In this document: one piece after another, positions 9,540 through 25,692 of the stretch | Numbering within the stretch: the stretch's first letter is position 1 | Layout of the letters: every line of letters starts with the position of its first letter | IMG/VR virus record: IMGVR_UViG_3300009149_000238 | Coordinates: 1 to 25,886 of that record | Direction: 5' to 3' (one strand) | Source: a virus | Length of the DNA stretch: 25,886 nucleotides | Notes under the pieces: generated by a model | Databases searched by the model: none | What the model saw: the letters and a program-made list of their open reading frames with translations, nothing else | What the model was told of the DNA's origin: nothing | Position numbers and translations under genes: made by a program

Positions 9540-9546
9540 TTTTTTA

Positions 9547-10539: not shown

Positions 10540-10549
10540 AATTTTTAAG

Positions 10550-10582
10550 TAAAAAAGGCTGAGGTATTATCCCCAGCCTTGT
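10550..10582 (-). terminator. Intrinsic terminator after the SSB-like gene
   Basis: On the minus strand AAGGCTGGGG (10580-10571) pairs with CCTCAGCCTT (10564-10555) around a 6-base loop, giving a 10-bp stem with one G-T pair, followed by TTTTTTACTTAAAAA. It lies 9 bases beyond the stop at 10592 and just before the primase start, so it separates two transcription units or attenuates downstream genes. Confidence 0.88.
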
Positions 10583-10591
10583 TATTATATA

Positions 10592-11161
10592 TTAAAAAGG
10601 TAAATTATTTATTTCTGCAATAGGCGAATTTACCATATCATCCATGTCATGTTTTGGTAACTTAACCATATCATACTCATTATTAACATCGTATGTTAAT
10701 TTAGAATTTTCTGTTGGTATTGTTAACCCTTCTACAAAACTTCTAAATGTCACTTCAGCTTTCCACCAATTACCTTTATTACCAGCAATCTCTTTGCCAA
10801 TAAACTTCATTCTAAAGAATTTATTACCTACAATAGGCATAATTGCTTTAGCGTATTCTGTATAATCAGGCGCCTTAATTCCGTCTAATTGTTCACGCAC
10901 ATCTAATGCTGTCGCAAAAGCTACTAACTTTTGTAACGCATACTTTTTACCTGCTTCAGAAAACCATAATGTAGTTTCTGCTGTTCGTGGGTCATTATCT
11001 AACTCTTTTATAGGGTGTGAGTTAAATACTATTTTAATTCCTTCTGTTCCTTTTTGAGAGGTTGTATACTCCATTGAAGCAATTTTACACTCACTAATAC
11101 CAGGTTCAATAAATTTTGATACTCTACCTTTCTCTTCTTCTGTTCCTTCTGTTGTAATCAT
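10592..11161 (-). CDS. Putative single-stranded DNA-binding protein
   Basis: A 189-aa protein with a beta-rich body (GISECKIASMEYTTSQKGTE; IKIVFNSHPI; KFFRMKFIGKEIAGNKGNWW; AEVTFRSFVEGL) and a C-terminal acidic tail that ends HDMDDMVNSPIAEINNLPF. An OB-like body with an acidic tail tipped by a hydrophobic Pro-Phe end is the mark of SSB-type proteins, whose tail docks replication partners. It follows the Sak4-like ATPase, a usual pairing in phages. No standard SSB sequence motif is clear, so the call rests on architecture, tail and context. ATG at 11161 with the leader AGATAAAAATT. Confidence 0.7.
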   Translation of the reverse strand: MITTEGTEEEKGRVSKFIEPGISECKIASMEYTTSQKGTEGIKIVFNSHPIKELDNDPRTAETTLWFSEAGKKYALQKLVAFATALDVREQLDGIKAPDYTEYAKAIMPIVGNKFFRMKFIGKEIAGNKGNWWKAEVTFRSFVEGLTIPTENSKLTYDVNNEYDMVKLPKHDMDDMVNSPIAEINNLPF

Positions 11162-11187
11162 AATTTTTATCTAATTTTTATTTTTTA

Positions 11188-11892
11188 TTAATCTACGTAA
11201 ATTTTTTTCCAGTCAAACTCAAAGTCTGTTCCTTTAAGATGCTCACATCTACTTCCACAGATAAGCTCTTCTTTGGCTTGGAAATTAACCATTAATTTAT
11301 CATCTTCTCTATACAAATACCCAATAGCATCTGCATTTGCACTAACCATATTTCTTATTTGACCAGTTAGTGCTAAATCTTTAGCGGAAACCTCTTTTCC
11401 ACCTTTACTAATCATCTTATCTTTAAGATGCGCTACAAATATTAAATGCTCTACTAAAGTTTTTGTATATTCTAACATAGCCTGAAAAGCTAATCTTAGG
11501 TGTAAATATCCTGCACCGTTAGGTAATTCCAATACCGATTTACCTGCAAAATTTTTACCCATATTACTAGCTTTATATTTAGCTGTAGCTGCCGCCTCTG
11601 CCCAATGTTCTAATTGGGTTATAGTATCTATTGCTAAATACTTGTACGGCTTTCCTTTTTCTTTTACTTTCTCACCTAGTGCATAAAGTTCTTTAATAGT
11701 GTTAACTTTGTATTTAACAGCGTCAACAAACTCACTTCCATTTTCTAAATCTACAAGTAAACACTCGTCTAATTCTGATATAAGTGTTGTTTTTCCCATT
11801 TTTGGTTGGGAATACAGTACAAATGTTCGTGGGTTTCTATTTTTAACTTTAATTTTTTTGCTAGGTAGAATTATTTCTAAATTTTCACTCAA
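11188..11892 (-). CDS. Sak4-like RecA-fold recombination ATPase (AAA_24)
   Basis: A 234-aa single-domain P-loop ATPase. Walker A is SQPKMGKTTL (about residues 28-37), preceded by the strand RTFVLY; Walker B is YKYLAIDT (about 84-90). ILVEHLIFVAHLKDK and the SANADAIGYLY region fit the later strands of the fold. Phage Sak4 proteins are RecA-like and promote single-strand annealing or strand exchange together with an SSB; the adjacent SSB-like gene supports this. The start must be TTG at 11892: no in-frame ATG exists before the Walker A methionine, and the preceding sequence AAGAAAAA-TTG resembles the local start leaders. The gap to the helicase stop is 13 bases. Confidence 0.85.
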   Translation of the reverse strand: MSENLEIILPSKKIKVKNRNPRTFVLYSQPKMGKTTLISELDECLLVDLENGSEFVDAVKYKVNTIKELYALGEKVKEKGKPYKYLAIDTITQLEHWAEAAATAKYKASNMGKNFAGKSVLELPNGAGYLHLRLAFQAMLEYTKTLVEHLIFVAHLKDKMISKGGKEVSAKDLALTGQIRNMVSANADAIGYLYREDDKLMVNFQAKEELICGSRCEHLKGTDFEFDWKKIYVD

Positions 11893-11905
11893 TTTTTCTT
11901 TTTTT

Positions 11906-12979
11906 TTATTTTAATAACCCTCCCACACTTCTTACATTCTCATAATAAGCGTCAGTCATTTCCTCAGCTTTTGGTAATTCATGAAACATACCTACTTCGC
12001 CAATAAAACCATAACCATATCGCACATCATCTACACCGTAAGAATTTTTTAACGCACTAATAGACCTAAATCTGTTATAACCCTTATTATTAACAAATTT
12101 ATCTATTTGATAATCCATGTGGTCATACACTTTGTATTTATAAGGATTAAACAGTGCTAAAGCAACATCACAATCTTCATATAAGTTACCAGAATCTTTA
12201 AAGTCGTCAGGGTCAGGAGTTATCTCCTTATTTCTTGCTCTTTGTGAATCTGATAAACTCCTATTAAACTGTGAAACTACTATAGGCGAAAACTTATAAA
12301 GGTCTCTAGATATTCCAAGGTACTCAGATATTTTATCTATAGTTTCTTTTTTACTAAATCCCCTTTCTTTTTTTACTTTACCTATATGGTCTAGTACAAC
12401 TAAAGTAATTTTCTTATCATTATTAGCTTTATAAGTTCTATCAAACTCATTAATAATTAAAGTTCCATTATCTTTAGCGGTCTGCTCTAATTGCTTAAAA
12501 ACCCCTGTAGGATTTTCAGCACCGTCTATTATTTTAACTACGTCTGACATTTCGTCAAAGTAATCTAATGTTTTTACTATTTTTTCATATATCTCTTGTG
12601 ATACGTGGTTCTTTTTAACTCCCCACCCAAAAATAGTAGGCACATCCATTAATATACCATAGTCTTGAAAAAGCTTCATACACAGCCATTTCCCTATTTT
12701 ATAAGCACGGGGTCTTTCCATTGACCTATAAATTATTTCTAAGTCCATATCAGTTTCTCCCTTTTCTTTTTGTTCTTTAAACCATTTATAAGCTTGTAAA
12801 ACATATGTATAATCAGTAAAACTAGTCTTTCCTGACCCCGCACTTCCACCTAATAAAGTATACATGCCCTGATTTATATTTATATGTTCGCCTAACTTTT
12901 TATGCGCTATAGGAATACAAGTTACATCTCCATTGATGCCTCTATCAATTTCTTTTTTTACTTCTTCTGAATAGCTCAT
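11906..12979 (-). CDS. DnaB-type replicative helicase (ATPase domain only)
   Basis: A 357-aa RecA-fold helicase. Walker A is GGSAGSGKTS (residues 44-53), a SMERPRAYK segment stands where DnaB has its catalytic-glutamate region, Walker B is LVVLDHIGK (D197, H198), the sensor element is SPIVVSQFNR (Q237), and DFKDSGNLYEDCDVAL matches the DnaB RxSG...D-ADV C-terminal motif. It would form a hexamer that unwinds the fork and interact with the primase. The N-terminal helical domain of bacterial DnaB (about 100-150 aa) is missing, a shortened form common in phages. ATG at 12979 directly abuts the stop of the upstream 200-aa gene. Confidence 0.88.
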   Translation of the reverse strand: MSYSEEVKKEIDRGINGDVTCIPIAHKKLGEHININQGMYTLLGGSAGSGKTSFTDYTYVLQAYKWFKEQKEKGETDMDLEIIYRSMERPRAYKIGKWLCMKLFQDYGILMDVPTIFGWGVKKNHVSQEIYEKIVKTLDYFDEMSDVVKIIDGAENPTGVFKQLEQTAKDNGTLIINEFDRTYKANNDKKITLVVLDHIGKVKKERGFSKKETIDKISEYLGISRDLYKFSPIVVSQFNRSLSDSQRARNKEITPDPDDFKDSGNLYEDCDVALALFNPYKYKVYDHMDYQIDKFVNNKGYNRFRSISALKNSYGVDDVRYGYGFIGEVGMFHELPKAEEMTDAYYENVRSVGGLLK

Positions 12980-13581
12980 TATAAATTAATTATGTTTCTT
13001 TTTTCATCTTTTAGAGTACCTTCTTTAAGCTGTTCACAGTAACTTGCTAACGTACTCATGTCATTTTTCCAAATGAATCTATCAGCCATTGATACATAAG
13101 CATAATTATCCTTTTTCTTTTGTTCTAAATAACACGTAGTTGCTTTTAATATTAATTCTTTATTATTAAACTCAGGATAATTATATAAAAACTTAGCCAT
13201 ATTATTAGTACATCCTTTTTTATCTCCTTTAAAAGGATAACCATTAGGATTCATACCTTTAGGAAATAAATCCCTATACTCTTTAATCCATTTAGCTACT
13301 CCTGATTTCATATGAGCTATAGTAGGTTTTAAATAAAACTCTTTTAAGCTTTTAACAACCTCTATTTCTTCTATCTTAATATAGGTACTAATACTAGTAG
13401 ATGTTTTAATAAGTCCTTTTTCTTTAAGTTTAATTAAAGCTTCTAAATAATAATAATCTATTATAAGAGAATTAAACAACTCTTTTTCTTTGTTGTTTAT
13501 AAGGTTTAACAATAATAATTCATCAGGTCTTTGTTTTTTTAATACTAAGCTTTTTTCTGTCATCTTCACTACTACTTCCAT
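12979..13581 (-). CDS. Uncharacterised 200-aa protein next to the helicase (possible loader)
   Basis: I choose the ATG at 13581; a GTG lies at 13587 and another ATG (MTEKSL) at 13563. The C-terminal two thirds (KWIKEYRDLFPKGMNP, GDKKGCTNNMAKFLYNYPEF, YAYVSMADRFIWKNDMSTLA) has a conserved-looking style familiar from hypothetical proteins beside phage helicases. No P-loop is present, so it is not a DnaC-type ATPase, but a non-ATPase helicase loader or adaptor would fit its position. The start overlaps the 57-aa zinc-ribbon gene. Its stop and the helicase start share a base (TAATG-type junction), indicating coupled translation. Function inferred only from context. Confidence 0.68.
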   Translation of the reverse strand: MEVVVKMTEKSLVLKKQRPDELLLLNLINNKEKELFNSLIIDYYYLEALIKLKEKGLIKTSTSISTYIKIEEIEVVKSLKEFYLKPTIAHMKSGVAKWIKEYRDLFPKGMNPNGYPFKGDKKGCTNNMAKFLYNYPEFNNKELILKATTCYLEQKKKDNYAYVSMADRFIWKNDMSTLASYCEQLKEGTLKDEKRNIINL

Positions 13582-13696
13582 CTTCACTTTTTTTTATTAT
13601 ATCCCCTGCTTCACAATTACATATTTTCATAGTCTTGCCATTAAAATATACGCCTGTATTAAAGCAGTTTATACATGTTTCTTCTATATCTTCCAT
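13523..13696 (-). CDS. 57-aa zinc-ribbon-like microprotein
   Basis: Frame from ATG (13696) to TGA (13523). The product begins MEDIEETCINCFNTGVYFNG; it has C8-x2-C11 and then C26-x-C28 (KICNCEAG), a four-cysteine arrangement fitting a small zinc-binding ribbon, followed by an acidic Ser-rich linker and a basic tail (DRKKLSIKKTKT). It fills the gap between the 110-aa gene (whose stop it touches at 13696) and the 200-aa gene, whose start it overlaps in another frame. Composition matches phage small regulators that bind nucleic acid or a host protein, but this is inference. The overlap with a second coding frame is the main doubt. Confidence 0.55.
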   Translation of the reverse strand: MEDIEETCINCFNTGVYFNGKTMKICNCEAGDIIKKSEDGSSSEDDRKKLSIKKTKT

Positions 13697-14028
13697 TATT
13701 CTAAACAGTGTTTATATATATTTCTAATTTCTTCTTCTTCTGGTTCCATAATATACTTTCTAGATTCCTTTACTTGCTCCTCTGTGCATTCACAGTCAAA
13801 TTCATGAGTAATTAAGTAAGAAGTTGCTTTATTATTTTCAAATTTAAAAGCAGGATAAAGTTCTTTAAGCATTTCTATAGCTACAGGTATATTTTCTGTG
13901 TTAATTTTAGTAAACTCTTTAAAAACATTCACACTAGGAAGAGCGTATTTACCCTCCCTAGCATGCATTTCTTTTCTTGTCTCTATCTCTTTAACTACAG
14001 ACTTTTTAGTTTTATATTTTGAAAACAT
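13696..14028 (-). CDS. Uncharacterised 110-aa protein
   Basis: ATG at 14028. The product starts basic (MFSKYKTKKSVVKEIETRKE) and ends acidic (a Pro-Glu-Glu-Glu-Glu stretch and a final HCLE). The stretch CECTEEQVKESRKYIMEPEE includes two close cysteines. No family recognised, no membrane segment. It lies one base from the stop of the class II amidotransferase gene (14030) and touches the zinc-ribbon gene, so it bridges the amidoligase island and the replication block; either assignment is possible. Confidence 0.65.
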   Translation of the reverse strand: MFSKYKTKKSVVKEIETRKEMHAREGKYALPSVNVFKEFTKINTENIPVAIEMLKELYPAFKFENNKATSYLITHEFDCECTEEQVKESRKYIMEPEEEEIRNIYKHCLE

Positions 14029-14029
14029 A

Positions 14030-14692
14030 TTATACTAGTTTATGTTCTGAGCGTTTTTCTAATACATATCCGTTATGAGGCTGTATGTGATAATAATTAG
14101 AGTATATTAATGACTCTTTTTTTCTCATATTCCAATAACCAAAAGTATCCATATCTAAATTAATATCTGGATGCATTACACAAATTTTATTATTTCCCAT
14201 TAGTCTATACATTTGATAATAAGAAGCGTATTCTATGTTTCTCATAGACGCTAATACATTTTCTTCGCTTAAATAATCTTTAATGTAATGTACAGTGTCT
14301 GAATACTTAGAGTCTTTAACTGCATAATAATCAAAAGTACCATTATGAGACATTACTGCATTATTTGTAATAACCGCTTCATCTATTAAAATGTCTTTAA
14401 AATTGTCAGCAACTACATAAGGATGGCAATTTTCTATACCTATTTCTCCTGCTGTTGCGTACCTCATATGAAACATAATTTCATCCCCTTTTTGTATATT
14501 CATTTTTTCTAGCGCCTCTAAAGCAAGTTCATAATACTTATAACCTTTAGAGAGAATTATATTTGCACTGTTTTCTCTTTTAACAGCAAAACCAGTTCCA
14601 TGACAATTATGAAGAGAGGCAGTTTTAGTTGCATCTTTTAATTCTTGTAAATCTAGCTCTATGCCTGCTTTTTTAGCAATTATTATACACAT
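14030..14692 (-). CDS. Class II glutamine amidotransferase-like protein (Ntn hydrolase)
   Basis: A 220-aa stand-alone class II glutaminase domain. Cys2 follows the start Met (MCIIIAKKAG), so Met removal exposes the nucleophile. Supporting motifs are HGTGFA (glutamine loop), FHMRYATAG (R77), CHPY (H90), SHNGTF (N117-G118, oxyanion hole) and SDTVH (D132). Such domains release ammonia from glutamine for a partner synthase; free-standing ones may also act as amidohydrolases on gamma-glutamyl compounds. It overlaps the end of the larger amidoligase gene by 10 bases, so the two may act together, the amidoligase or another ligase using the ammonia. The C-terminal 60 residues are not part of a known synthase domain. 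Confidence 0.88.
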   Translation of the reverse strand: MCIIIAKKAGIELDLQELKDATKTASLHNCHGTGFAVKRENSANIILSKGYKYYELALEALEKMNIQKGDEIMFHMRYATAGEIGIENCHPYVVADNFKDILIDEAVITNNAVMSHNGTFDYYAVKDSKYSDTVHYIKDYLSEENVLASMRNIEYASYYQMYRLMGNNKICVMHPDINLDMDTFGYWNMRKKESLIYSNYYHIQPHNGYVLEKRSEHKLV

Positions 14693-16149
14693 AATATTTC
14701 TTTTTTAGTTTTAAGTATTATTTGTTTATCACTTGATTCTAATAAATTAGGTTCATTACTAAATAACTTTTGTCTCATTTTTACATAACTCAATAAAGGA
14801 GCTACATTTTTTTTATACGTAGCTTTTATAATATCTTCTAAAGTAATTACATCTTTAGAAAGTATATCATTTTCATTATTTTCTATATAATTTACAAACG
14901 CCATACAAATAAGAGTAAAGTTTTTAATCTTAGTATAATTTAATGTTCCTGAATGAAATCTAAACTCTATAGTATCTGCATCTTTATTATACCCATTTTT
15001 AGGATGATGAAAGTTTCTAACATTAAAATTACATGGAATTAAATTTACCCATTTATATCTAAAATTATCTTCATCATTTATTCCATTATACTTTCCGCAA
15101 TATCTACCATGATAATGATTATACTTTTTATTAGTACGGCTGTCTAATTTACGGCCATAGGTCATGTTTTCATACAGTGCTTTATAAGCAACTTCTACAC
15201 CATAACTAGCTCCATATTTACTAATAATATCTTCTAAATTAAGTTTTATAACATCACCACAATAAGAATTACCTCTTCTACTTTTAGATACTATAGTAAA
15301 CATAGAATCTTGTATTTTTTCACTTAATATATGTGCATACACAGAAAAAGCTTTATTAAAATTAGCTCCTCCTATATGCACATGCATACCGCAAGCCTTA
15401 TCCACTTTGTTCTGCTTATTAAGAACGGTAGCAGTACGATATAGCTGATTAAAACCAGAATCTCCTTTAAGAACTCCTGTAACATACTCAGCTCCTTTTA
15501 CAGAACCATCTCTTATAGAACTTAAATTAAGACTGTTAATAAAATAGTCTTGTAAAGCTAGAAGTCCTTGAGAAGTTTCTAATTCTACTCCAAAAGAGTA
15601 CTTAAGGCCTTCGGATGCTATATATGTTTTAGAATCTATTCCTAATATATCTCCCCATTCTTTTATAGTTTTAAAAGGAACCTTTTTAATATGAACTTCT
15701 TCAGTCAGATTAGTAAGTGTAAATTGTCGTCCTAAATTATTCTTACAAGCTTTATTTTTAAAATCATAAGTTCTCAGTACATTACGTTTAAACTTATAAC
15801 AGCTATTTTGATTACTTAACTCTAAAAGGTTAATAACTTCTTTATCAATAAAATAAACTGTTGTTCCTATTTCACTTGCTGATATGTGAGGCAAAAAATC
15901 AGAAAAGCAATAATATCTTAAATAAAAATTTAATAACAAATTATTTTTAGAAATATCTAATAAAAAGTTTTTTAAATTACTTTGTTTTATAAAAAAAGAT
16001 GTGGCAAACGTACCTTCATTTTTATAAATAAGCCCTATAGTATCTGTAATAGGTGTTAAAATACCATTTTCTGTTAATACTCTTTCTATTTTAAGCTCTT
16101 TATTTATATTTAAAAGTTTTTCTATTTTATTTTTCATATTCTTTTTCAT
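14683..16149 (-). CDS. Amidoligase (Amidoligase_2, glutamine-synthetase-fold COOH-NH2 ligase)
   Basis: A 488-aa protein. Residues about 184-410 carry the Amidoligase_2 motifs: YSFGVELET (E189, E191), a following D/E pair (RDGSVKGAEYV), GMHVHIGG (H256, H258) and IEFRFHSGTLN (E395, R397). In the glutamine-synthetase fold these bind metal and ATP, activating a carboxylate as an acyl phosphate for attack by an amine or ammonia. The first 180 residues are a separate, unrecognised N-terminal region. A basic and Tyr/His-rich insert (about 333-352, including HYHGRYCGKYN) precedes the last motif. ATG at 16149 (another at 16137) overlaps the upstream amidotransferase gene by 23 bases. The substrate is unknown. 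Confidence 0.88.
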   Translation of the reverse strand: MKKNMKNKIEKLLNINKELKIERVLTENGILTPITDTIGLIYKNEGTFATSFFIKQSNLKNFLLDISKNNLLLNFYLRYYCFSDFLPHISASEIGTTVYFIDKEVINLLELSNQNSCYKFKRNVLRTYDFKNKACKNNLGRQFTLTNLTEEVHIKKVPFKTIKEWGDILGIDSKTYIASEGLKYSFGVELETSQGLLALQDYFINSLNLSSIRDGSVKGAEYVTGVLKGDSGFNQLYRTATVLNKQNKVDKACGMHVHIGGANFNKAFSVYAHILSEKIQDSMFTIVSKSRRGNSYCGDVIKLNLEDIISKYGASYGVEVAYKALYENMTYGRKLDSRTNKKYNHYHGRYCGKYNGINDEDNFRYKWVNLIPCNFNVRNFHHPKNGYNKDADTIEFRFHSGTLNYTKIKNFTLICMAFVNYIENNENDILSKDVITLEDIIKATYKKNVAPLLSYVKMRQKLFSNEPNLLESSDKQIILKTKKEILCV

Positions 16150-17404
16150 TTAATTCTCCTACTTCTGACAATGTCGCTATAAATTTACTAACATTAAGTA
16201 TAGCATTATCTAATCCTTCTATATCTTCTTCTTTAACTCCTTTATCTTCAAGGGCTATACTTAATTCAATTCTAGCTTCATCTAATACAGCATATAATTC
16301 AGACATATAATCCATAACATCTTCTATTGCTATTGTTCCTTCTTCTGAATACGAAACTAAGCTATTATCATAGTAACTATCATCACTTACTAAAACTTCT
16401 TCAAAACCACCGTCATTCATATATCTTACATGTACAGTAATTGCTCTAACAGGGTCATAAACTAATTCTTCTCTTATACATTTTTTTTGCCCTAAAAAAG
16501 AATCAAAACTTACTATTACAGTTTCATCAGTAAAAACAGTAGTTGTTTTATTTTTTTGTGAGTACATAGTTCTACGTTCTCTACAAGGAAGTAAAATACT
16601 TTCAGGTAATCTTTTTACTTCGTTTTTAATAGGATTATTTCTAGCTATAGTCATTCTTTCTACTATTACACCATTTTTAATACTATGTAAAACATCTAAA
16701 TCAAAAGATTTTATATCTGCACAACCAATAGTTTCTAAAGAATCTTCAATTGAAGATATATACATACCTATTTTTTTGTCTTTTTTAATAATCCCATAAA
16801 ATAAAGGTCTTTCTTTATCATGATAAGCATAGAGTGTATTATTTTTTTTAACACTAGTATTAGCCCATAATAAAGCTGCTGCACCTTCATAATGATTAAG
16901 TATTTTAAAGTTTTCATTTTTATCCATAGAAGCTGGAAATATTTTACTATCTATGTCAATAGTTTTTTCATCCATTTCATACTCTCTTAATAAACCTGTA
17001 GTATTAGTTAAAGTTCCGTTATGCGCTCCTACCCATTTTCCAAAAAGAAAAGGATGAGCATTATTTGCAAAAGAACGACCAGTACCAGTAGTTGCTGCTC
17101 TTGTGTGCCCTATAAATAAATTAGAAGGTTTATTTAATTTTTCAGGTAATAAACTTAAAGACACTTTTCCACTTTGTTTATTTATTCTTTCTTCAGATTT
17201 AATCTTTATTTTATGGTCATAATAACCACAAGAATCTTCTCCTCTTGTTTGGTTATACATAAAAAGTAAAGAAAGTTTGTCTTTATCTGCTTCATATTCT
17301 CCTGAAAATCCTAATAACCCACATCCTAATACCATAGAGCGTTTCTTTGTTATTATTGCTTTAATAAAATGCACTAATATTAGTGCTATAATAAAATTTA
17401 TCAT
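16127..17404 (-). CDS. Class II glutamine amidotransferase-like protein with N-terminal hydrophobic leader
   Basis: The catalytic domain starts at C28 (CGLLGFSGEY) with RGEDSCGYYD, IGHTRAATTGTG (R102), AHPF (H117), GAHNGTL (N129-G130) and IDIDSK (D152), so it is a full class II glutaminase domain. The residues after about 230 match no synthase domain I know and end in an acidic helix. I take the ATG at 17404, preceded by AAAAAAACAAACAA; a TTG at 17431 is less likely, and an ATG at 17335 is possible. From 17404 the Cys is preceded by 27 residues with a hydrophobic stretch (MINFIIALILVHFI) and KKRSMVLG; from 17335 only MVLG precedes it. Either way a leader must be cut off to free the nucleophile, as happens with PurF and glutamate synthase propeptides. 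Confidence 0.82.
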   Translation of the reverse strand: MINFIIALILVHFIKAIITKKRSMVLGCGLLGFSGEYEADKDKLSLLFMYNQTRGEDSCGYYDHKIKIKSEERINKQSGKVSLSLLPEKLNKPSNLFIGHTRAATTGTGRSFANNAHPFLFGKWVGAHNGTLTNTTGLLREYEMDEKTIDIDSKIFPASMDKNENFKILNHYEGAAALLWANTSVKKNNTLYAYHDKERPLFYGIIKKDKKIGMYISSIEDSLETIGCADIKSFDLDVLHSIKNGVIVERMTIARNNPIKNEVKRLPESILLPCRERRTMYSQKNKTTTVFTDETVIVSFDSFLGQKKCIREELVYDPVRAITVHVRYMNDGGFEEVLVSDDSYYDNSLVSYSEEGTIAIEDVMDYMSELYAVLDEARIELSIALEDKGVKEEDIEGLDNAILNVSKFIATLSEVGELNEKEYEK

Positions 17405-17424
17405 TTGTTTGTTTTTTTTAATAA

Positions 17425-17784
17425 TTACCAATTACCTGTTTTTACCACAGCTAATTCATCTACTTTTTTGTTAAAAATGTAAATACTTGCTTTACCATAC
17501 TTTGTGTTTATTTCTTTTTTAAGATAAAAAGAGTGTTGAGGAATTTCTTCACGATATCCTTCTAAACATTCTATTTCTCTATCTTCTTCTTCTGTTACTT
17601 CGTATACCTCTAAATGAATAGCTGTATCACCATTTTCAATTACCCCTGGAAATCCTCCTAAACTATACATAGTATACCTAGGCTCTGTTATAGTTTTACC
17701 TACATACTTAGCTCTTCCTAAGAACATATCATGGTTACTATAACCTTTTTTTAAACTTCCGTATACAGCGCATAGTTTTTTCAT
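17425..17784 (-). CDS. Gamma-glutamylcyclotransferase-like protein (GGCT/AIG2 fold)
   Basis: A 119-aa protein with the family fold markers: AVYGSLKKGYSNH at residues 6-18 (YGSL substrate loop), GGFPGVIE, and IHLEVYEV, whose E59 is the likely catalytic acid/base, followed by the E-x-x-E-C-LEGY stretch. Family members cleave gamma-glutamyl bonds with release of 5-oxoproline (GGCT), or cleave gamma-glutamylamines (GGACT, BtrG-type). Here it would trim or unprotect a gamma-glutamyl intermediate made by the neighbouring ligases. Its gene is 20 bases upstream of the larger amidotransferase gene. Length is typical. Which member of the family it is cannot be told from sequence alone. Confidence 0.85.
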   Translation of the reverse strand: MKKLCAVYGSLKKGYSNHDMFLGRAKYVGKTITEPRYTMYSLGGFPGVIENGDTAIHLEVYEVTEEEDREIECLEGYREEIPQHSFYLKKEINTKYGKASIYIFNKKVDELAVVKTGNW

Positions 17785-17796
17785 AATGTTATTTTT

Positions 17797-18195
17797 TTAA
17801 TTTATTACTAATTGTTTTCTTATATCACAAAAAATATTAAACTCTTTTTTCATTTTGTCTGTTATAGGCAATGCATAAGTATCTCTAGATGGAGGGCGTA
17901 AAACATAATAAGACCAGTGTTCTGTGTTAACATTTTCAAATACTACTTTTTTTACGCCCCTACAGTATAAAGCGCCTATTCTTCTGTCATTTAACATATT
18001 AAATAAAGTATATATAACTAAATTTTTTCTATATTTATACTTTATAAGGTATTTCATAATGTAAACCATACCAACGCCTGTATAGAAAACAGGTGAACCC
18101 ATTTCTCTATTATCTAGAGAAAGTAATTTATGACTTATTGGGTCACAAAAATAATCACTAAGTAGTTTTTCTATTTTTTTTATTTTATTTTCCAT
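17797..18195 (-). CDS. Uncharacterised 132-aa protein in the amidoligase island
   Basis: ATG at 18195, overlapping the ATP-grasp gene by 11 bases. No known family. Charged helical start (KIKKIEKLLSDYF), then a mixed region with GSPVFYTGVGMVYIMKYLIKYK and RRIGALYCRGVKKVVFENVN, which looks like alternating helix and strand; a later VLRPPSRDTYALP loop is polar. No membrane segment. Three cysteines. It sits between ATP-grasp and GGCT, so it probably belongs to the same pathway, perhaps as a small accessory or binding protein. Confidence 0.65.
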   Translation of the reverse strand: MENKIKKIEKLLSDYFCDPISHKLLSLDNREMGSPVFYTGVGMVYIMKYLIKYKYRKNLVIYTLFNMLNDRRIGALYCRGVKKVVFENVNTEHWSYYVLRPPSRDTYALPITDKMKKEFNIFCDIRKQLVIN

Positions 18196-18988
18196 ATTTT
18201 TGTTCTAACATTAAAGGTATTTCTTTAAGATAAGCTTCCATAGTTCCTTCTCCAAAGGAGGGCGCACTATTAATTTCTATTACAATAAATTTAGGGTTAT
18301 TTCTTTTTTTACCTTCTTTATTAGTAGCACTTTGTACTCTAACATCACAAGCTCCAAAATCAAGCCCTACAGCTTTCATTGCTTTTACACATTCATTAAC
18401 TATTGCCTCCCAATTAACTGGTTTATCAAACTGTTCATTATCCTCTATAAACCATACAGAGTTAGAATCATTTCTAAACCATCTTTTACCATCAGGAATA
18501 TCACTCTTTAGCATTTTTCTACAAGTATAAAAACAGCCATCAGAATTAACATGTAAACGATATTCACGAGAGAAGTTATGAAACTCTTCATAGATATAGC
18601 CTTTAAAATTATTATTCACAAGAAATACATCTAGTTGGTCTTGGTTATCTATTTTAACCATTCCCAGCCCTCTAGACCCATATTTTTTCTTAGCTATAAT
18701 AGGAAAAGGAATTTCTTCCTCTTCTAATAAAGTTTGCATACTATTCCACCAAAAAGCTGTCTTAACATCCTCAGCATTAAAACACCCTTTCATAATTTCC
18801 TTGTTAGAACTATTTCCAATAGCTTCAGGAGAGTTAAGAAACTTATTACTTTTATTCCATATAGTCTTACTTCCAAATCTTACACATGCTAATAAATGAG
18901 CTGGAACCATTATTTTATCTCTTATTCCGTTATGTGAAGGATGTCTAGAAAATATCCGTACACTCCTCTTTAACCATTGTTTTTTCAT
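18185..18988 (-). CDS. ATP-grasp ligase (RimK/YheC-like)
   Basis: A 267-aa ATP-grasp protein. Residues 96-109 (PIIAKKKYGSRGLG) contain the ATP-binding Lys and the Gly-rich loop; YIYEEFHNFSREYRLHV (E134-E135, R144) is the usual hinge; FGACDVRV holds D215; and FIVIEINSAPSF (E238, N240) is the metal-binding pair. ATP-grasp enzymes couple a carboxylate to an amino or other nucleophile through an acyl phosphate. The first 90 residues are a small N-terminal domain with a histidine/arginine-rich start (RIFSRHPSHNGIRDK). ATG at 18988. It is flanked by unknown genes and lies in the island; RimK-type chain building with glutamate is one possible activity, not shown. Confidence 0.88.
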   Translation of the reverse strand: MKKQWLKRSVRIFSRHPSHNGIRDKIMVPAHLLACVRFGSKTIWNKSNKFLNSPEAIGNSSNKEIMKGCFNAEDVKTAFWWNSMQTLLEEEEIPFPIIAKKKYGSRGLGMVKIDNQDQLDVFLVNNNFKGYIYEEFHNFSREYRLHVNSDGCFYTCRKMLKSDIPDGKRWFRNDSNSVWFIEDNEQFDKPVNWEAIVNECVKAMKAVGLDFGACDVRVQSATNKEGKKRNNPKFIVIEINSAPSFGEGTMEAYLKEIPLMLEQKYGK

Positions 18989-19796
18989 TTATTTTTTTTA
19001 TTTTTATAATTTTACATTGTTTTTGATTAACGTATATCATACCTTTATCAGTCTTTAAACCTAATATAGTTTTACTTGACATATCTAGTACGTCTTCAAC
19101 TTTATAAGTGTTTCCTACAATAAGAGATTGTCTACCTTTTTTAAAAATAACTGTACTACCTTTTGTTACTTTTTCATCTTTTTTCCCTTCTTCTAAAATT
19201 ATAATCATTTCCGTAGGAATATAAAAAGTATTAGCATGTTTTTTTAAAGTTGCAAAAGTACCTTCCTCAAAAATTTTATTAATAGTAACATATTTTTCTT
19301 CTTCTAATTTTAGATAAAGTCTATGTAATTCTTTTTTAGAAGTAGCACATCTTCCCATATAATAATAATCTCCATCTAAATATTTTTGAACAGACTGTAA
19401 AGAAACTAAATTTATTTTGTCGTTAACAAAAAGTTTTTGAAAAATCACGGTAAACGTGTCTGTTAATACATTAATAAATATATTATCTTCTCCGCCTCCA
19501 TTATAACTTAAATGAATTTTATCTTCAATTTGCTCTATAACAGTCCAATTAGCACCATTATATTTTATTTTATCTCCTTTACGAAATATTCTTTTTTTTT
19601 TTAAAATAAGAGGTTCAAAATAATGATTAAAAAACTTTATAGGAGTACCATCTTCTTTAATATGTTCTTTAAATCCAATAACATTTTCTCCTATAAAATT
19701 AATTGTAAGTATTTTTCTTTTTTCTAATAAAGTTCCTTCATATCCATGAAGGTTTACACAAATTACTTTTTGTTCTAATATAAATTTATTTTCCAT
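18945..19796 (-). CDS. Uncharacterised 283-aa protein with SH3-like beta repeats
   Basis: I choose the ATG at 19796 (leader AAAAATAATAAT); a TTG at 19829 would extend into the upstream gene. The protein is beta-rich and lysine-rich. Two or three short segments have the look of SH3-like barrels starting with a K-G-x-x-V/I turn: about residues 9-47 (QKVICVNLHGYEG), 71-110 (FRKGDKIKYNGANWTVIEQI) and 210-262 (VTKGSTVIFKKGRQSLIVGN). These are inferred from pattern only. Overlaps the ATP-grasp gene by 44 bases. It might bind nucleic acid, peptide or cell-wall material for the neighbouring ligases. No enzyme motif seen. Confidence 0.65.
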   Translation of the reverse strand: MENKFILEQKVICVNLHGYEGTLLEKRKILTINFIGENVIGFKEHIKEDGTPIKFFNHYFEPLILKKKRIFRKGDKIKYNGANWTVIEQIEDKIHLSYNGGGEDNIFINVLTDTFTVIFQKLFVNDKINLVSLQSVQKYLDGDYYYMGRCATSKKELHRLYLKLEEEKYVTINKIFEEGTFATLKKHANTFYIPTEMIIILEEGKKDEKVTKGSTVIFKKGRQSLIVGNTYKVEDVLDMSSKTILGLKTDKGMIYVNQKQCKIIKIKKINEKTMVKEECTDIF

Positions 19797-19818
19797 ATTA
19801 TTATTTTTTATTTTTAAT

Positions 19819-20640
19819 TTATGAAACAAATGTAAGTTTATTTATATTTATATTTGTTTTAATGTAAGGAATTTTAAATTTAGAAATTAATTTAATAGCT
19901 AATTTTTCGTCATAGTTATTAATACATTTTTGAATATCTTTAGCATCTTTTGCACTTATTTCTAAATTATCATTAACTTTACTTACAGCTAATTGAGTAT
20001 TATTAAAAGCCCATGTAATAAGATTGTCAGAAGTAATCCAAAAATTAGATAAAGTTCTATATTCGCAGCCATAATTTTTAATTCTAAATGCACCTGCTTT
20101 TCCGTACATTTTTCTTCTGTCCCTATCTTCGTCCATAAGGACACTAGGAACACCTAAAAACAAATCCATCATTTTAATGAGTTTTTCTGTTACAGGAATT
20201 CTAGGCTTTTCATAGCCTACATGTATATGTCCAGCACTAACTCTTACATTAGTATTTGCAGAAGGAGCTGTATTAGGCTTTCTAGCCCATACATCTAAAT
20301 CTGGTTCACACCCAAAAGCTTTTGCTTGTTTAGACTGTAAATACTTTTCATCAAGAGTAGTTGATGCTACTATATAAGGCTCAAGATTATTAGGAATATT
20401 TTCTTTTATATAATCTATGCAAATATTAATATCTCTAATAAAACTTTCAGAATCTATTACAGGATTAAATCCAAATTCTACTGCTACGTTATCTTCTTGT
20501 ACATTATGCCCTAAGTCACTAATAGCTTTTGGCTCTTGCTTAGTTCCTCCTATTAACCCCTCAGAAGAAACTATTTCTCCTGTTATCTTATCTTTTAAAA
20601 AGAATTCTGGGTCTGCTCCAATTGTTACATTTTTTATCAT
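19819..20640 (-). CDS. phiEco32-type COOH-NH2 ligase (glutamine-synthetase fold amidoligase)
   Basis: A 273-aa protein that starts with the family hallmark IGADPEFFL (residues 7-15; D10, E12), then GHNVQEDNVAVEFGFNP (residues 44-60; E55), SAGHIHVGY (H138, H140), RDRRKMYGKAGAFRI, and GCEYRTLSNFW (E193, R195). These are the metal- and ATP-binding positions of the phage COOH-NH2_lig family first described from phiEco32, distinct from the Amidoligase_2 family present at 14683-16149. Expected reaction: ATP-dependent amide bond formation. ATG at 20640; 2 bases separate it from the class I amidotransferase stop (20643). Confidence 0.9.
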   Translation of the reverse strand: MIKNVTIGADPEFFLKDKITGEIVSSEGLIGGTKQEPKAISDLGHNVQEDNVAVEFGFNPVIDSESFIRDINICIDYIKENIPNNLEPYIVASTTLDEKYLQSKQAKAFGCEPDLDVWARKPNTAPSANTNVRVSAGHIHVGYEKPRIPVTEKLIKMMDLFLGVPSVLMDEDRDRRKMYGKAGAFRIKNYGCEYRTLSNFWITSDNLITWAFNNTQLAVSKVNDNLEISAKDAKDIQKCINNYDEKLAIKLISKFKIPYIKTNININKLTFVS

Positions 20641-20642
20641 AC

Positions 20643-21371
20643 TTATGCTATTTTTTCTATTAATTTAAAATCTTTTATAAAAAATTGTTCTACTACTTTT
20701 TTAATTTTTTTAACTCCACTATGTTGCCTATCTAAAAATTCAGGGTGCCCTTGTATAGCAATTGCATCAATTTTTAAATAAACAACTACTTCTGGTTCTA
20801 CAAAATTTTTAGGAACTTTTATAGGTTCATTATCTCCATTTAAATAAATATCACTTTTTTTAGATAAAGAATATGCTCCTAATATATAATCCTCTTCAGG
20901 TAGATTAAAAGGATATTGCATTTGATGGTGAGTACTTGTTATACTACTGTCATCTCCTGACTGCCATTTAATCTCATGAGTGCCAGATATACCGTGTCCT
21001 GTACAATGTTGTATTAATTTACCTCCTGCCATTACACACGTTAATTGACTTCCTCTACAAATACCTATAATCTTTTTATTTAAAGAAATAGCTTTTTTAT
21101 AAAGTTCTACTTCTATTTTATCTCTATCAGGATTAATTGAAGTATACATACCTATATTTTCACCATAATAAACAGGGTCAACGTCTGCTCCTCCTGTAAA
21201 CATAACTAAATCAGCGTCTTCTACATTATCTACATGGTTCATTTCATATAACCAGTTTGCATAATTTTTATCTCCTCCTACTACATAAATATTTTTATTT
21301 TCTAAAGGATAATAATTAAAAAACCTTGAATTACTATTTTTTTTATTTTGTTTTTTTGATTTTTTTTTCAT
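20643..21371 (-). CDS. Class I glutamine amidotransferase/peptidase C26-like protein
   Basis: The ATG at 21371 gives 242 aa; a TTG at 21416 is less likely. The basic Lys-rich N-terminus is followed by a class I glutaminase fold: TGGADVDPVYYGE (oxyanion element typical of PuuD-type gamma-glutamyl hydrolases), IIGICRGSQL with nucleophile C105, the STHHQMQYP loop, and IAIQGHPEF with H209 and E211. Peptidase C26 members hydrolyse gamma-glutamyl bonds (PuuD, folate gamma-glutamyl hydrolase), so hydrolysis of a gamma-glutamyl compound is as likely as ammonia supply. It follows the polymerase gene by 7 bases and is the first gene of the island. Confidence 0.88.
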   Translation of the reverse strand: MKKKSKKQNKKNSNSRFFNYYPLENKNIYVVGGDKNYANWLYEMNHVDNVEDADLVMFTGGADVDPVYYGENIGMYTSINPDRDKIEVELYKKAISLNKKIIGICRGSQLTCVMAGGKLIQHCTGHGISGTHEIKWQSGDDSSITSTHHQMQYPFNLPEEDYILGAYSLSKKSDIYLNGDNEPIKVPKNFVEPEVVVYLKIDAIAIQGHPEFLDRQHSGVKKIKKVVEQFFIKDFKLIEKIA

Positions 21372-21378
21372 AATAATG

Positions 21379-23337
21379 TTAATGTGACCAATATTCAGAA
21401 ACAACCGCTTCTGCAACCATTGGAATTGTTTTACAAAATACTTTTCCTGCGTCTTCCATACATTTTGTTAATAATTTTGAAGCTATTTCTATGTACGCAT
21501 CGCTTGTTTCTATTACTATTTCGTCGTGAACAAGATTTACTATCCATACTTTATTGTATAAGTTTTTTTCTTGTAATTCTTTTTTTAACAGAATAGCCGC
21601 AAGTTTAGTCATAGAACCACTTGTTCCTTGTATTGGGGCATTTCTAGATAGTCTAGATATTTTACCCTTTAATTTAAAGTAAGAGCTCCAAGGAAAATTA
21701 TTTTTTAATGAAGGATTACTAGTAGATTTATCTAATCTTTTTTGCAACACCTTTAATTCATCAAAATCTTTAGTAAATAATTTTCTTTTTGTTATAGAGT
21801 CTATTAAAATATAACCATTTTCCATAGTTTCTTTTAATTTTCTATCAAAATAGTCTTTTTTACCAGGGAAAGCTTCTTCTAATGCGTCAATAAAAACTTG
21901 AGCTTCTTTTTCTGATTTAACTTTTAAATCATCCTTAACAGTAAATGCAGAACCGCCATAATCTAATTTAAGATTAAGCACTTTTCCTATTTGTCTTCTA
22001 GGGTCTCCTTTAGTTATTTTAACCTCTTTACCTTCTATTACAGAAAATAATCTGCTACTTACCATAGAATGGGTATCTCCGTCTCCATTTAAATAAAACT
22101 CTATTAAAGCAGGGTCTTTACATACATCAGCAGTAACACGAGGCTCCTGTTGACTGTAATCTGCTACAATGAGGGTATTATCACCTGAACCTCTAAAACA
22201 CTCTCTAAAAGGTTGAGAGCCTGTCTCGTTTTCCCTTGCTGGTATGTTTTGTAAATTAGGATGATTACTGCTTATTCTTCCTGTAGATACTATTTGCCAA
22301 AAACTTGAATGCACTCTTCCTGTAACAGGATTAATATGCTCTAAAAATTCTATGCCGTAAGTACTTACTTCTTTAGCTACTGCTTTATAATTAAAATATA
22401 ATTTTAAAAAAGGAAATTTATTTTTATATTTTCCTATTGCTTTTTCTTCACAAGTGTCTTTATCTTTACCCGTACTTCTGTCTCTTGTAAGAGTTCTTAT
22501 TCCTAAGTACTTAAGAAAAGGTATTACTTGTTTAGGTGAATCCCAATTAATATTGCATTTAAAATCTTCAGCAAATAAATTATACTGAGTATCAATAAAT
22601 AAATGTATATTATTACTTAATATATAATTATCTAACGCTTTTCTAGAGTTTACAAGCTTATCTTTGTTGCTAATTTCTAATTTAGACCACATTTTTCTGT
22701 CTAAATAAAAGCCATTATACTCTATATCAGCTAAAACACTCATAAACTTATTTTCAAGTCTTAAACAAGGCTCTAAATCATATTTTTTAATCTCTTTAAG
22801 CTGTTCTTTTCTTATACCTAATAAATACTCTACATCTTTAGCGCCATACACAATTTGTTTATAAGTAAAAGGCTGTCCTTTCATTCCTATAAATTGATTA
22901 CGCACACTCTTATCTAAGAATATATTTAAATATTTATTAGTAATAAAACCTAAATTAACTTCATTAGTATCAGGGCCTGCAGTAAGTATCATTTCAGCTA
23001 ATTGTGTATCCCACACATTAACCAACATTATTTTATACATTCTAAAGAATTTATAATCAAATGCAGCATTTTGTAATACTTTAATAATATTAGGGTTTTC
23101 TAGTATCTCTTTTAAAGGGTTTATATCTGTTGTTCTTACGTCTATTACAAACTGAGTATCTTCATCTCCTATTTGTAACATAATTATTACATTACTATGG
23201 TTAAATAACCCACTAGTTTCAGTATCTAAACCTAGTATTTTTTTATTTTTACAATAGTTAATTACGTCTTCAATCGAGGTATAAACTATCTGTTCCTGTA
23301 GTTCCTCTGCTATAATCCCAACGATTTCTTTCGTCAT
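21379..23337 (-). CDS. polA: Family A DNA polymerase with 3'-5' exonuclease
   Basis: I choose the ATG at 23337 (652 aa); another lies at 23373, and a TTG at 23391. Exonuclease motifs: GLDTET (D38, E40), NAAFDYKF (N90, D94), YGAKDVEY (Y164, D168), so proofreading is intact. Polymerase: motif A DYSQQEPR (393-400), O-helix/motif B RRQIGKVLNLKLDYGG (R448, K452, Y460), motif C VHDEIV (603-608). At the O-helix site equal to E. coli Phe762 this enzyme has Leu456, a known viral variant. It lacks a 5'-3' exonuclease domain. It is the replicative polymerase of this phage. Its start overlaps the preceding gene by 68 bases. Confidence 0.95.
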   Translation of the reverse strand: MTKEIVGIIAEELQEQIVYTSIEDVINYCKNKKILGLDTETSGLFNHSNVIIMLQIGDEDTQFVIDVRTTDINPLKEILENPNIIKVLQNAAFDYKFFRMYKIMLVNVWDTQLAEMILTAGPDTNEVNLGFITNKYLNIFLDKSVRNQFIGMKGQPFTYKQIVYGAKDVEYLLGIRKEQLKEIKKYDLEPCLRLENKFMSVLADIEYNGFYLDRKMWSKLEISNKDKLVNSRKALDNYILSNNIHLFIDTQYNLFAEDFKCNINWDSPKQVIPFLKYLGIRTLTRDRSTGKDKDTCEEKAIGKYKNKFPFLKLYFNYKAVAKEVSTYGIEFLEHINPVTGRVHSSFWQIVSTGRISSNHPNLQNIPARENETGSQPFRECFRGSGDNTLIVADYSQQEPRVTADVCKDPALIEFYLNGDGDTHSMVSSRLFSVIEGKEVKITKGDPRRQIGKVLNLKLDYGGSAFTVKDDLKVKSEKEAQVFIDALEEAFPGKKDYFDRKLKETMENGYILIDSITKRKLFTKDFDELKVLQKRLDKSTSNPSLKNNFPWSSYFKLKGKISRLSRNAPIQGTSGSMTKLAAILLKKELQEKNLYNKVWIVNLVHDEIVIETSDAYIEIASKLLTKCMEDAGKVFCKTIPMVAEAVVSEYWSH

Positions 23338-23743
23338 CTTCAAACTTTCCTGCCCTGTCACATATTTTATCATACTCTTCTTTTGTATCAAATATTAATT
23401 TTTGATAGTTAGTTAAATTTTGTTTTATAGTAGCATCTATAGGTATAAGATGTTCTCCTATTTGAATATACTTACTAGTAAGAGTATCTATATGTACAAT
23501 ATTTACCGCTATATTTTTACCCACTATCATAAGCTTAATATCCTTTTCTGCATATTTAAAAAACTCATTAACAGTTATATTTGTTACTTTATAGTAATAA
23601 TTAAAAAAATCTTTAATAATAATACCTTTACCATGTTTTTGTACAAATACTACGTCTTGTATATCTGAAACAAAAGAACTAAAAGTATTTTCATAACAAA
23701 TATAAGGATTGCAATTTTCGTATAAATTTATTTTTTTTTTCAT
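23270..23743 (-). CDS. Uncharacterised 157-aa protein upstream of polA
   Basis: ATG at 23743 with an A/T-rich leader (ATATAAAAAAATAA). Beta-rich N-terminal two thirds (DVVFVQKHGKGIIIKDFF; NYYYKVTNITVNEFF; MIVGKNIAVNIVHIDTLT), then a charged C-terminal helix (KEEYDKICDRAGKFEDDERN) and a Ser/Gly/Thr tail. No recognised family. The end overlaps the polymerase start by about 68 bases, so its 3' end encodes two proteins in different frames; the two are probably made together. It is the first gene after the hairpin and repeats at 23756-23808. Confidence 0.68.
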   Translation of the reverse strand: MKKKINLYENCNPYICYENTFSSFVSDIQDVVFVQKHGKGIIIKDFFNYYYKVTNITVNEFFKYAEKDIKLMIVGKNIAVNIVHIDTLTSKYIQIGEHLIPIDATIKQNLTNYQKLIFDTKEEYDKICDRAGKFEDDERNRWDYSRGTTGTDSLYLD

Positions 23744-23755
23744 TTATTTTTTTAT

Positions 23756-23790
23756 ATAGTAGGAGATGCAACTTAATACATCTCCTATAT
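23756..23790 (-). promoter_or_regulatory. 9-bp hairpin upstream of the polA operon
   Basis: TAGGAGATG (23760-23768) pairs with CATCTCCTA (23779-23787) around a 10-base loop. It lies between the stop at 23826 and the start at 23743. On the minus strand it is followed by CTATATAAAAAAATAA, an A-run instead of a T tract, so it is not a standard terminator for the minus-strand genes; it may be an mRNA processing or stability element, or an operator. Confidence 0.55.
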
Positions 23791-23808
23791 TTAACAATTA
23801 TATTTAAC
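23786..23808. repeat. Two 10-bp direct repeats, TATATTTAAC
   Basis: TATATTTAAC occurs at 23786-23795 and again at 23799-23808, 13 bases apart, in the non-coding gap ahead of the polA operon and next to the hairpin. Spacing and location resemble a regulator binding site, but the sequence is A/T-rich and chance cannot be excluded. Confidence 0.4.
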
Positions 23809-23825
23809 TTTCAAACAAACAAAAA

Positions 23826-24143
23826 TTATTTTCTTAACTCTTTAATTTTAAAAGAATCTTCTAATACTCTAACAGTTTTTGCTAAAGCTTCTTCTTCTTT
23901 TATATTTTTTGAATTAACTACTATTAATTCCAAAGTTTCCTTTGTCATTGCCTTAATTTTGGCCAAGCAGTGTGGACTATTTTTAAAAAATCCACATTTT
24001 TCTAATTGTTTGTCTTTGTAGTCTCCTATATTATAACTTGCATTGAGAAAAGCACTATTTGATATGCCTGTGTCCATAAGCAAAGTAATAGTTTTTACTA
24101 TACTCTCTTTTATGTAGTCAGTAACTTCTTCATATTTATCCAT
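23826..24143 (-). CDS. Uncharacterised 105-aa protein
   Basis: I choose the ATG at 24143 (MDKYEEVTDYIKESIVKTIT); a TTG at 24161 would extend it by six residues. It is helical-looking, with two cysteines (KCGFFKNSPHCLAKIKAM) that might form a small turn, and a charged C-terminal helix ending FKIKELRK. No known family. The start overlaps the stop of the preceding 70-aa gene by 8 bases. It is the last gene of the small-gene cluster before the polA operon. Confidence 0.65.
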   Translation of the reverse strand: MDKYEEVTDYIKESIVKTITLLMDTGISNSAFLNASYNIGDYKDKQLEKCGFFKNSPHCLAKIKAMTKETLELIVVNSKNIKEEEALAKTVRVLEDSFKIKELRK

Positions 24144-24348
24144 TACAGTGTGTTTTAACAAGTGTGGTCATTTTATTTTTATTATTCTGTAGTTTTTTAA
24201 CTTTTTTAAGAGTTTCTATTTCTTTATGAGATTTTTTAAGTCTTTCTAAAGGTGTAACCATTTTATATCTAAGACCTGCTTTAATTAAATAATCATTATC
24301 ACCTAATTCTCTCTTTTTGTTTTTATTGAATATAAATTTCTTTCCCAT
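24136..24348 (-). CDS. Small basic 70-aa protein
   Basis: ATG at 24348, leader CTATTAATT. The product is strongly basic (MGKKFIFNKNKKRELGDND start, then repeated Lys-rich stretches) and helical in its second half (LERLKKSHKEIETLKKVKKL), so it could bind nucleic acid. No family recognised. Same strand and spacing as its neighbours. Confidence 0.6.
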   Translation of the reverse strand: MGKKFIFNKNKKRELGDNDYLIKAGLRYKMVTPLERLKKSHKEIETLKKVKKLQNNKNKMTTLVKTHCNG

Positions 24349-24378
24349 AATTAATAGTTTAATTTTACATGTTAAATT

Positions 24379-24618
24379 TTATTTATTAATACTTGCTTTA
24401 GCTTTAAAAGCTATTACAGTCTCTAAAGCAACTAAATAACTGCCTTTTATAGTTCCTGTATTGTGTAAATCAAGTAATTCTTGGTCACTTAGCTTACTAT
24501 ACTCTTCTTGCTTATCAAAATAAGCAGTTCTTCTTCTAAGATTATCTTTCTTAGTTATTTTTACTGCTTTTCCTGATACTTTTTTTCCGTTTTTTCTTTT
24601 ACTATTGCTTTTTGACAT
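24379..24618 (-). CDS. Small 79-aa protein with Lys/Arg-rich N-terminus
   Basis: ATG at 24618, next to the stop of the preceding gene (24619). The first 32 residues are rich in Lys, Arg and Ser (SKSNSKRKNGKKVSGK, DNLRRRT), while the remainder is a helical region (EEYSKLSDQELLDLHNTGTI, then YLVALETVIAFKAKA). This looks like a disordered nucleic-acid-binding tail joined to a small helical domain. No family recognised. Confidence 0.6.
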   Translation of the reverse strand: MSKSNSKRKNGKKVSGKAVKITKKDNLRRRTAYFDKQEEYSKLSDQELLDLHNTGTIKGSYLVALETVIAFKAKASINK

Positions 24619-24837
24619 TTATTTAAATTTTAAATCTTCTAATGCGTATATATTTCTTTTTTTACTTTTTACAATAATGTCTACACAACAGATAGACATA
24701 GAAGATAAAATTGTTGATTGCTTTCCTTGATAGTTATATACTTTAAAAATATCTTTTATTTCAATTAATTCTTTACCTCCATGTTTACTATAGTAATATA
24801 CTTTATCTCCTTTTTTAGCGGTTAAAATATCCTTCAT
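24619..24837 (-). CDS. Small 72-aa protein, possible SH3-like barrel
   Basis: ATG at 24837 after the leader ACTTAAATT. A beta-rich protein with the pattern AKKGDKVYYYSKHGGKELIE, then IKDIFKVYNYQGKQSTILSS and a CCVDIIVKSKKR stretch. The K-G-D-x-V-Y-Y start resembles small SH3-like domains, as in the 283-aa protein of the island, but homology is not shown. The start lies within the end of the 69-aa gene (23-base overlap). Confidence 0.58.
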   Translation of the reverse strand: MKDILTAKKGDKVYYYSKHGGKELIEIKDIFKVYNYQGKQSTILSSMSICCVDIIVKSKKRNIYALEDLKFK

Positions 24838-25024
24838 AATTTAAGTTAATATAGCCTATATTTGTACGCAGGCCGTGTTTTCTATTAGGTATAAACTCTA
24901 TTGACTTACTATACAGGTCTCTTAAAGGCTCTGTATAAGCTGTTGCTGTGTCTTCTATTAACACTACTTCAAATTCTTTTTTCATGTCAGCTTTAGCTGC
25001 TTCTTCTGCTGTTAATTTTTTCAT
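24815..25024 (-). CDS. Small 69-aa protein
   Basis: ATG at 25024 with the leader TTAAAAAAAATAATT. Charged alanine-rich N-terminus (MKKLTAEEAAKADMKKEFEV), then a beta-like region with LIEDTATAYTEPLRDLYSKS and a polar C-terminus (GLRTNIGYINLNYEG). No family recognised. It is the first gene after the terminator at 25053-25082 and overlaps the next gene by 23 bases. Confidence 0.58.
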   Translation of the reverse strand: MKKLTAEEAAKADMKKEFEVVLIEDTATAYTEPLRDLYSKSIEFIPNRKHGLRTNIGYINLNYEGYFNR

Positions 25025-25052
25025 AATTATTTTTTTTAAGATTTATACTTGT

Positions 25053-25082
25053 TAAAAATAGGGGACCACCACAGCCCCCTAT
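25053..25082 (-). terminator. Intrinsic terminator after the 117-aa gene
   Basis: Read on the minus strand, AGGGG (25080-25076) pairs with CCCCT (25064-25060), an 11-base loop (GCTGTGGTGGT) between, followed by ATTTTTAACAAG. It is about 28 bases beyond the stop at 25111. The stem is short but GC-only and has a T tract. Confidence 0.72.
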
Positions 25083-25110
25083 AAACTATATAACTAACTA
25101 CTATTGTTTA

Positions 25111-25464: not shown

Positions 25465-25478
25465 AATAAGCAGGTTAG

Positions 25479-25688: not shown

Positions 25689-25692
25689 AATA

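Follow-up and report, generated by a model that had tools for sequence, protein, structure and literature searches.

A nine-gene island in a virus genome fragment, seven of whose genes encode enzymes of amide and peptide-bond families, belongs to a cassette that is widespread across crAss-like phages, with cultured Cellulophaga phage phi14:2 carrying one version. One of its class II glutamine amidotransferases, GAT2b, looks like a protein with a membrane-tethered propeptide, judging from its N-terminal sequence. The enzyme set is of a known kind, corresponding to the "peptidoglycan modification" cassette described in podoviruses like LUZ24, RIO-1 and phiEco32; new here are the spread of the cassette in crAss-like phages and the recurrence of the putative membrane leader. 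The leader is a clue to the site of the chemistry, and it points first to membrane-linked precursors.

The window, by which we mean the whole 25.9 kb stretch of virus DNA analysed, has a GC content of 28.6% and no tRNAs. The island lies entirely on the minus strand, running from 21416 to 14030 between the genes for a family A DNA polymerase (polA, 21379–23391, minus strand), upstream, and a DnaB-type helicase (11906–12979, minus strand), downstream. In the order of transcription, it comprises a class I glutaminase-type protein (Peptidase_C26, 20643–21416; Pfam E-value 2.7e-18) with GICRG and GHPE motifs, whose start is probably the ATG at 21371, the boundary given by a first-pass annotation; a COOH-NH2 ligase type 2, of the predicted glutamine synthetase/glutamate-cysteine ligase (GS/GCL) fold (19819–20640; Pfam PF14395, 8.8e-15; PHROG 3815, 4e-76); an uncharacterised protein of 294 residues (18945–19829); an ATP-grasp ligase resembling RimK and D-Ala-D-Ala ligases (18185–18988; PHROG 2599, 4e-32; Pfam RimK only 0.06); an uncharacterised protein of 132 residues (17797–18195) with no Pfam or PHROGs match; a gamma-glutamylcyclotransferase-like enzyme (GGACT/YtfP, 17425–17784; Pfam GGACT, 1.7e-16); GAT2b with its leader (GATase_6, PurF-like, 16127–17404; 8e-8; PHROG, 2e-23); an Amidoligase_2 protein, also of predicted GS fold (14683–16149; Pfam, 1.3e-10), which overlaps GAT2b by 23 nt; and GAT2a, a second class II glutaminase-type protein (14030–14692; GATase_4, 1.3e-4) with a Met-Cys start. 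A 110-residue and a 202-residue ORF separate the island from the helicase gene. Elsewhere on the minus strand are a glucosaminidase with an N-terminal hydrophobic segment (8648–9073), which sits in the replication block rather than among late genes, and a short (617-residue) B12-dependent class II ribonucleotide reductase (5004–6857). The first-pass annotation had described seven enzymes in one co-directional run among replication genes, and all seven are there, on one strand.

Profile searches against Pfam and PHROGs place each of the seven in the family that the annotation had named, and six of these assignments are firm. The weakest is GAT2a, whose GATase_4 score falls just under the Pfam cut-off, yet the Met-Cys start and the HNG motif are kept. 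The catalytic motifs are intact, as the annotation had said, and alignments with relatives show residues of catalytic type that are invariant. In GAT2b, Cys37, Asn138, Gly139 and Asp161 are invariant in 28 aligned sequences and correspond to the Cys nucleophile, HNG and D motifs of class II enzymes. Among the aligned relatives, the invariant residues are Asp10, Glu12, His138, Arg186, Glu193 and Arg195 in the COOH-NH2 ligase, and Glu189, Glu191, His256, His258, Glu395 and Arg397 in Amidoligase_2. No solved structure is related in sequence to either amidoligase. The AlphaFold model of the COOH-NH2 ligase (pLDDT 93) is nearest, by TM-score in Foldseek, to YbdK and plant glutamate-cysteine ligase, and also matches glutamine synthetase; that of Amidoligase_2 (pLDDT 79) is nearest to YbdK and glutamine synthetase, with low TM-scores. 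The predicted structures agree with two amidoligases of different families that share the glutamine-synthetase/gamma-glutamylcysteine-ligase fold.

The two nearest relatives of the window carry all nine genes in the same order, with the seven enzymes 62–85% identical and the two uncharacterised proteins 44–51% identical (44–48% for the 132-residue protein and 45–51% for the fast-evolving 294-residue one). To survey the cassette more widely, loci were gathered by two scans with the ATP-grasp protein; 56 of the distinct loci had flanks of 6 kb or more on both sides. ATP-grasp is present in 56/56 by construction, as it was the search handle, which does not hold for the counts of the other genes: GAT2b and Amidoligase_2 are found in 56/56 each, the COOH-NH2 ligase in 54, C26 in 48 and GGACT in 47. 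A core of six enzymes is complete in 42 of the 56 loci, GAT2a occurs in 14, and all seven enzymes occur together in eight, the window included. Given the order kept in the relatives and the recurrence of the core, the association of these enzymes is far beyond chance. In all 69 pairs measured, the Amidoligase_2 gene comes directly after that of GAT2b (spacing −56 to +26 nt), and because of this constant adjacency the two probably form an ammonia-donor/ligase pair. When the ATP-grasp profile was run as a pattern scan over species genomes of bacteria and archaea, about 85,000 in all, it found a single relative locus, from which the module appears nearly confined to phages. Scanning with Amidoligase_2 found no relatives, and alignments A2 and A6 had conserved stretches insufficient for use. 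Megablast of window positions 9000–25886 against phages gave no match, and the PADLOC defence models gave nothing apart from a weak, out-of-context Csm2 hit.

Several further proteins accompany these enzymes. In many crAss-like cassettes, C26 has as its neighbour a member of an uncharacterised family of about 210–330 residues (examples at L077:7356-8891, L080:11530-13038 and L086:10755-12656), and in two cases the two are fused; gp029 and gp030 of gut phage cr108_1 are members by profile comparison. The window has no member, and comparison gave no support for kinship of its 132- or 294-residue proteins with this family. Window-type islands tend to have a fast-evolving protein of 220–310 residues just upstream of the ATP-grasp gene (the 294-residue protein in the window; families c34 and c78 in L016, L021, L044 and L047), which can hardly be aligned across loci. 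Where the genes follow the phi14:2-type order, the place directly after Amidoligase_2 is commonly taken by a uracil-DNA glycosylase gene (L026, L018 and about 30 other loci), which the window type lacks there.

The best annotated matches to the ATP-grasp protein are in phi14:2 and cr108_1, both Crassvirales, and relatives of the phi14:2 terminase and major capsid protein occur in four of ten cassette-bearing records. The crAss-like terminase, portal and major capsid proteins are present in records G005–G008, three of which share the island type of the window; these hallmark proteins are absent from the window and from its 41-kb nearest relative. Record G008 has its portal, terminase and capsid proteins in common with phi14:2; its giant late proteins, replication block and cassette are those that the window or the window's nearest relative also has. 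On these links the window phage is probably crAss-like, although the fragment itself has none of the hallmark genes. The window itself holds the C-terminal part of one giant late protein (122–2887, plus strand), which is 1495 residues long in the nearest relative, G001, and 2056 residues in G008, and which matches no family. A review of the Crassvirales does not mention the cassette enzymes, and no paper in one open-access library links crAss-like phages with an amidoligase, which is not proof of novelty.

Class II glutaminases use an N-terminal cysteine as the nucleophile. In the window, the listed GAT2b ORF (16127–17431) opens at a TTG at 17431, and the leader begins at an ATG at 17404, 20 nt past the upstream stop codon. 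The hydrophobic leader, MINFIIALILVHFIKAIITKKRSMVLG (17324–17404, minus strand), directly adjoins the codon of the nucleophile (17321–17323). This feature had been overlooked in the first-pass annotation, as had the frequency of the cassette in crAss-like phages. Of the 77 distinct GAT2b proteins, 35, the window's among them, have a hydrophobic leader of 22–48 residues before the cysteine and the other 42 start with Met-Cys, with no intermediates. The division was seen in a first set of 56 proteins (26 with a leader, hydrophobic without exception, and 30 with Met-Cys) and again, without intermediates, in 21 from loci fetched later (9 and 12). An N-terminus resembling the leader is found in only one of 588 proteins of thirteen other families from the same phages, and 2.9% of random segments are as hydrophobic as even the weakest leader. 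Leucine occupies position −2 in 30/35 leaders, and in all 26 leaders of the first set lysine or arginine follows the hydrophobic core.

The leader start is the natural start of the gene, because the stop codon upstream lies far from the cysteine in the leader types (median 93 nt) and near it in the Met-Cys types (about 10 nt). An artefact of ORF calling was rejected on three grounds: most leader types have no methionine beside the cysteine, the distance from the preceding stop codon to the start is a normal one, and phi14:2 is publicly annotated with this same start. A lipoprotein or Sec signal peptide was rejected on the basic residues that follow the core (26/26), the variable residue at −1 (often Asn, Tyr or Phe, unlike a lipobox or AXA site) and the missing basic N-terminal flank (23/26). 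Nor was the leader seen as a separate small ORF in the ten upstream regions of Met-Cys types inspected. The charge pattern predicts insertion with the N-terminus out and the C-terminus in. A single origin was rejected (p-AU 2.7e-6 on a quick tree), and about 20 state changes, at least 12 of them forced, occur on the tree, even between near-identical enzymes; recombination at the 5' end of the gene could contribute to this alternation. In the window trio, with few sites and five of seven pairs computed, dN/dS is about 0.4–0.6 for the leader versus 0.13–0.18 for the catalytic domain. Weaker constraint is expected if hydrophobicity rather than sequence matters, and plain weak constraint would look identical. 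Since 42/77 homologues, like the proteobacterial podoviruses examined, do without the leader, the putative membrane placement would not be essential to the pathway.

From the families, predicted folds, gene order and catalytic residues, we infer the following chemistry. GAT2b would split glutamine and pass the ammonia to the coupled Amidoligase_2, which would amidate a carboxylate; the COOH-NH2 ligase (GCL/YbdK-like) and the ATP-grasp ligase would each add one residue to a peptide carboxylate; and C26, GGACT and GAT2a might strip gamma-glutamyl or amide groups off unmodified or recycled material. A membrane-tethered ammonia donor would suit a substrate that is itself membrane-linked, which favours the peptide of membrane-linked peptidoglycan precursors as the target. 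By analogy and position this target is the most likely one, and that the cassette remodels such precursors early in infection is a proposal to which we give slightly less than an even chance. The leader form of GAT2b, which the window phage has in common with about half of its relatives, would sit at the inner membrane face, and only with the leader cut off before the cysteine could it work as an ordinary class II glutaminase. A bolder version, which we consider doubtful, has GAT2b as a membrane-tethered, self-cleaving zymogen that delivers ammonia to the GS-fold ligase at the inner membrane face, so that lipid-linked precursors would be amidated where they are made, with the tether gained and lost repeatedly between close phages, as though it were being adjusted to each host. 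An early role, suggested in the first-pass annotation from the location among replication genes, is consistent with Pseudoalteromonas phage HP1, in which transcriptomics found predicted peptidoglycan modification genes transcribed immediately on infection (PMC7082346).

The main rival is a soluble gamma-glutamyl peptide or amide, made by a logic like that of glutathione, ergothioneine or butirosin, in which the GCL-like ligase and ATP-grasp would build the product and GGACT, C26 and the class II enzymes would remove gamma-glutamyl protection. The structural proximity of the COOH-NH2 ligase to YbdK and glutamate-cysteine ligases agrees with such a product, as do the presence of the GGACT family, a weak EgtC match of GAT2b, and the curated models nearest to C26, which are gamma-glutamyl hydrolases (PuuD-type and gamma-glutamyl-CDP-amidate hydrolase, every score below cut-off). 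However, the cassettes showed no recurring carrier protein, transporter or tailoring enzyme, and the membrane leader would be left without a reason; we regard a soluble product as somewhat unlikely. Tagging of host or phage proteins with amino acids, in the manner of RimK or CDC123, is suggested by two labels of the ATP-grasp protein, ribosomal protein S6 glutaminyl transferase in PHROGs and rimK_fam as the best NCBIfam model, but the protein scores below the RimK cut-offs, and two GS-fold ligases with three glutaminase-type enzymes are more than tagging needs, which makes it distinctly unlikely. Nitrogen salvage, or recycling of glutamate or glutathione as auxiliary metabolism, was proposed for phage ZRK32, where phage plus ammonium raised growth, though its genes were not singly tested (PMC10945688); a unit kept across unrelated phages is more specific than salvage requires, and we think this role very improbable. 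Hypermodified phage DNA, for which only the position among replication genes speaks, is hardly credible, as the window genes that were scanned hit no base-modification family and HaeIII cuts the DNA of phage tf, a carrier of the amidoligase and glutamine amidotransferase of the cassette (PMC3517423). The interpretation in the first-pass annotation is partly supported: of the three roles it listed, modified DNA gains no support, a small peptide metabolite is still a candidate, and envelope alteration is the one already in the literature (PMC5498523, PMC10580990, PMC11945000).

Known systems outside this cassette offer partial parallels. The GAT2b profile alignment fits mature PurF, which begins at the nucleophile cysteine, as in PurF-type enzymes with a short propeptide; GAT2b lacks the phosphoribosyl domain. 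The known PurF-type propeptides are short and are not known to be membrane helices. Peptidoglycan amidation of the LtsA/AsnB type follows a similar stem-peptide logic with a ligase of another family than the window's. Likewise, MurT-GatD combines a glutaminase with an ATP-dependent ligase to amidate the stem peptide (PMC3267633), the logic proposed here, with different ligase families and no membership by sequence claimed.

Phage cassettes of this kind, credited to Iyer et al. and Hardies et al. 2013 (in PMC5498523, PMC11945000 and PMC3890496), were proposed years ago, and the literature we found shows no product or substrate for any of them, in line with the first-pass annotation, which had likened the set of ligases, amidotransferases and hydrolases to that of phiEco32. 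In RIO1-like podoviruses, a seven-gene peptidoglycan modification cassette was hypothesised to block superinfection (PMC5498523); a peptidoglycan modification module is also named in PMC11945000, which adds preparation for lysis as a role. LUZ24-like UFV-P2 carries the same enzymes (PMC3890496), PaP3, RIO-1 and CW02 also have this enzyme set, and the Zobellviridae phages CW02 and PA11 have a C26-type protein too. The RIO-1- and LUZ24-like cassettes share with the window the COOH-NH2 ligase, Amidoligase_2, ATP-grasp, a class II amidotransferase and the gamma-glutamylcyclotransferase near primase or helicase genes, whereas the window has the extra class II protein GAT2a, GAT2b followed directly by Amidoligase_2, and the GAT2b leader; the podovirus GAT2b homologues examined start at Cys2, uncertain start calls aside. 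Among the annotated phages checked, only phi14:2 (Crassvirales, Steigviridae) has the leader. Its genes g037–g041 encode the gamma-glutamylcyclotransferase, ATP-grasp, COOH-NH2 ligase, leader-bearing amidotransferase (YP_008242264.1) and amidoligase in one run, which differs from the window in the absence of C26 and GAT2a and in the length of the amidotransferase (638 residues versus about 425), and which places the cassette in a tractable host-phage pair.
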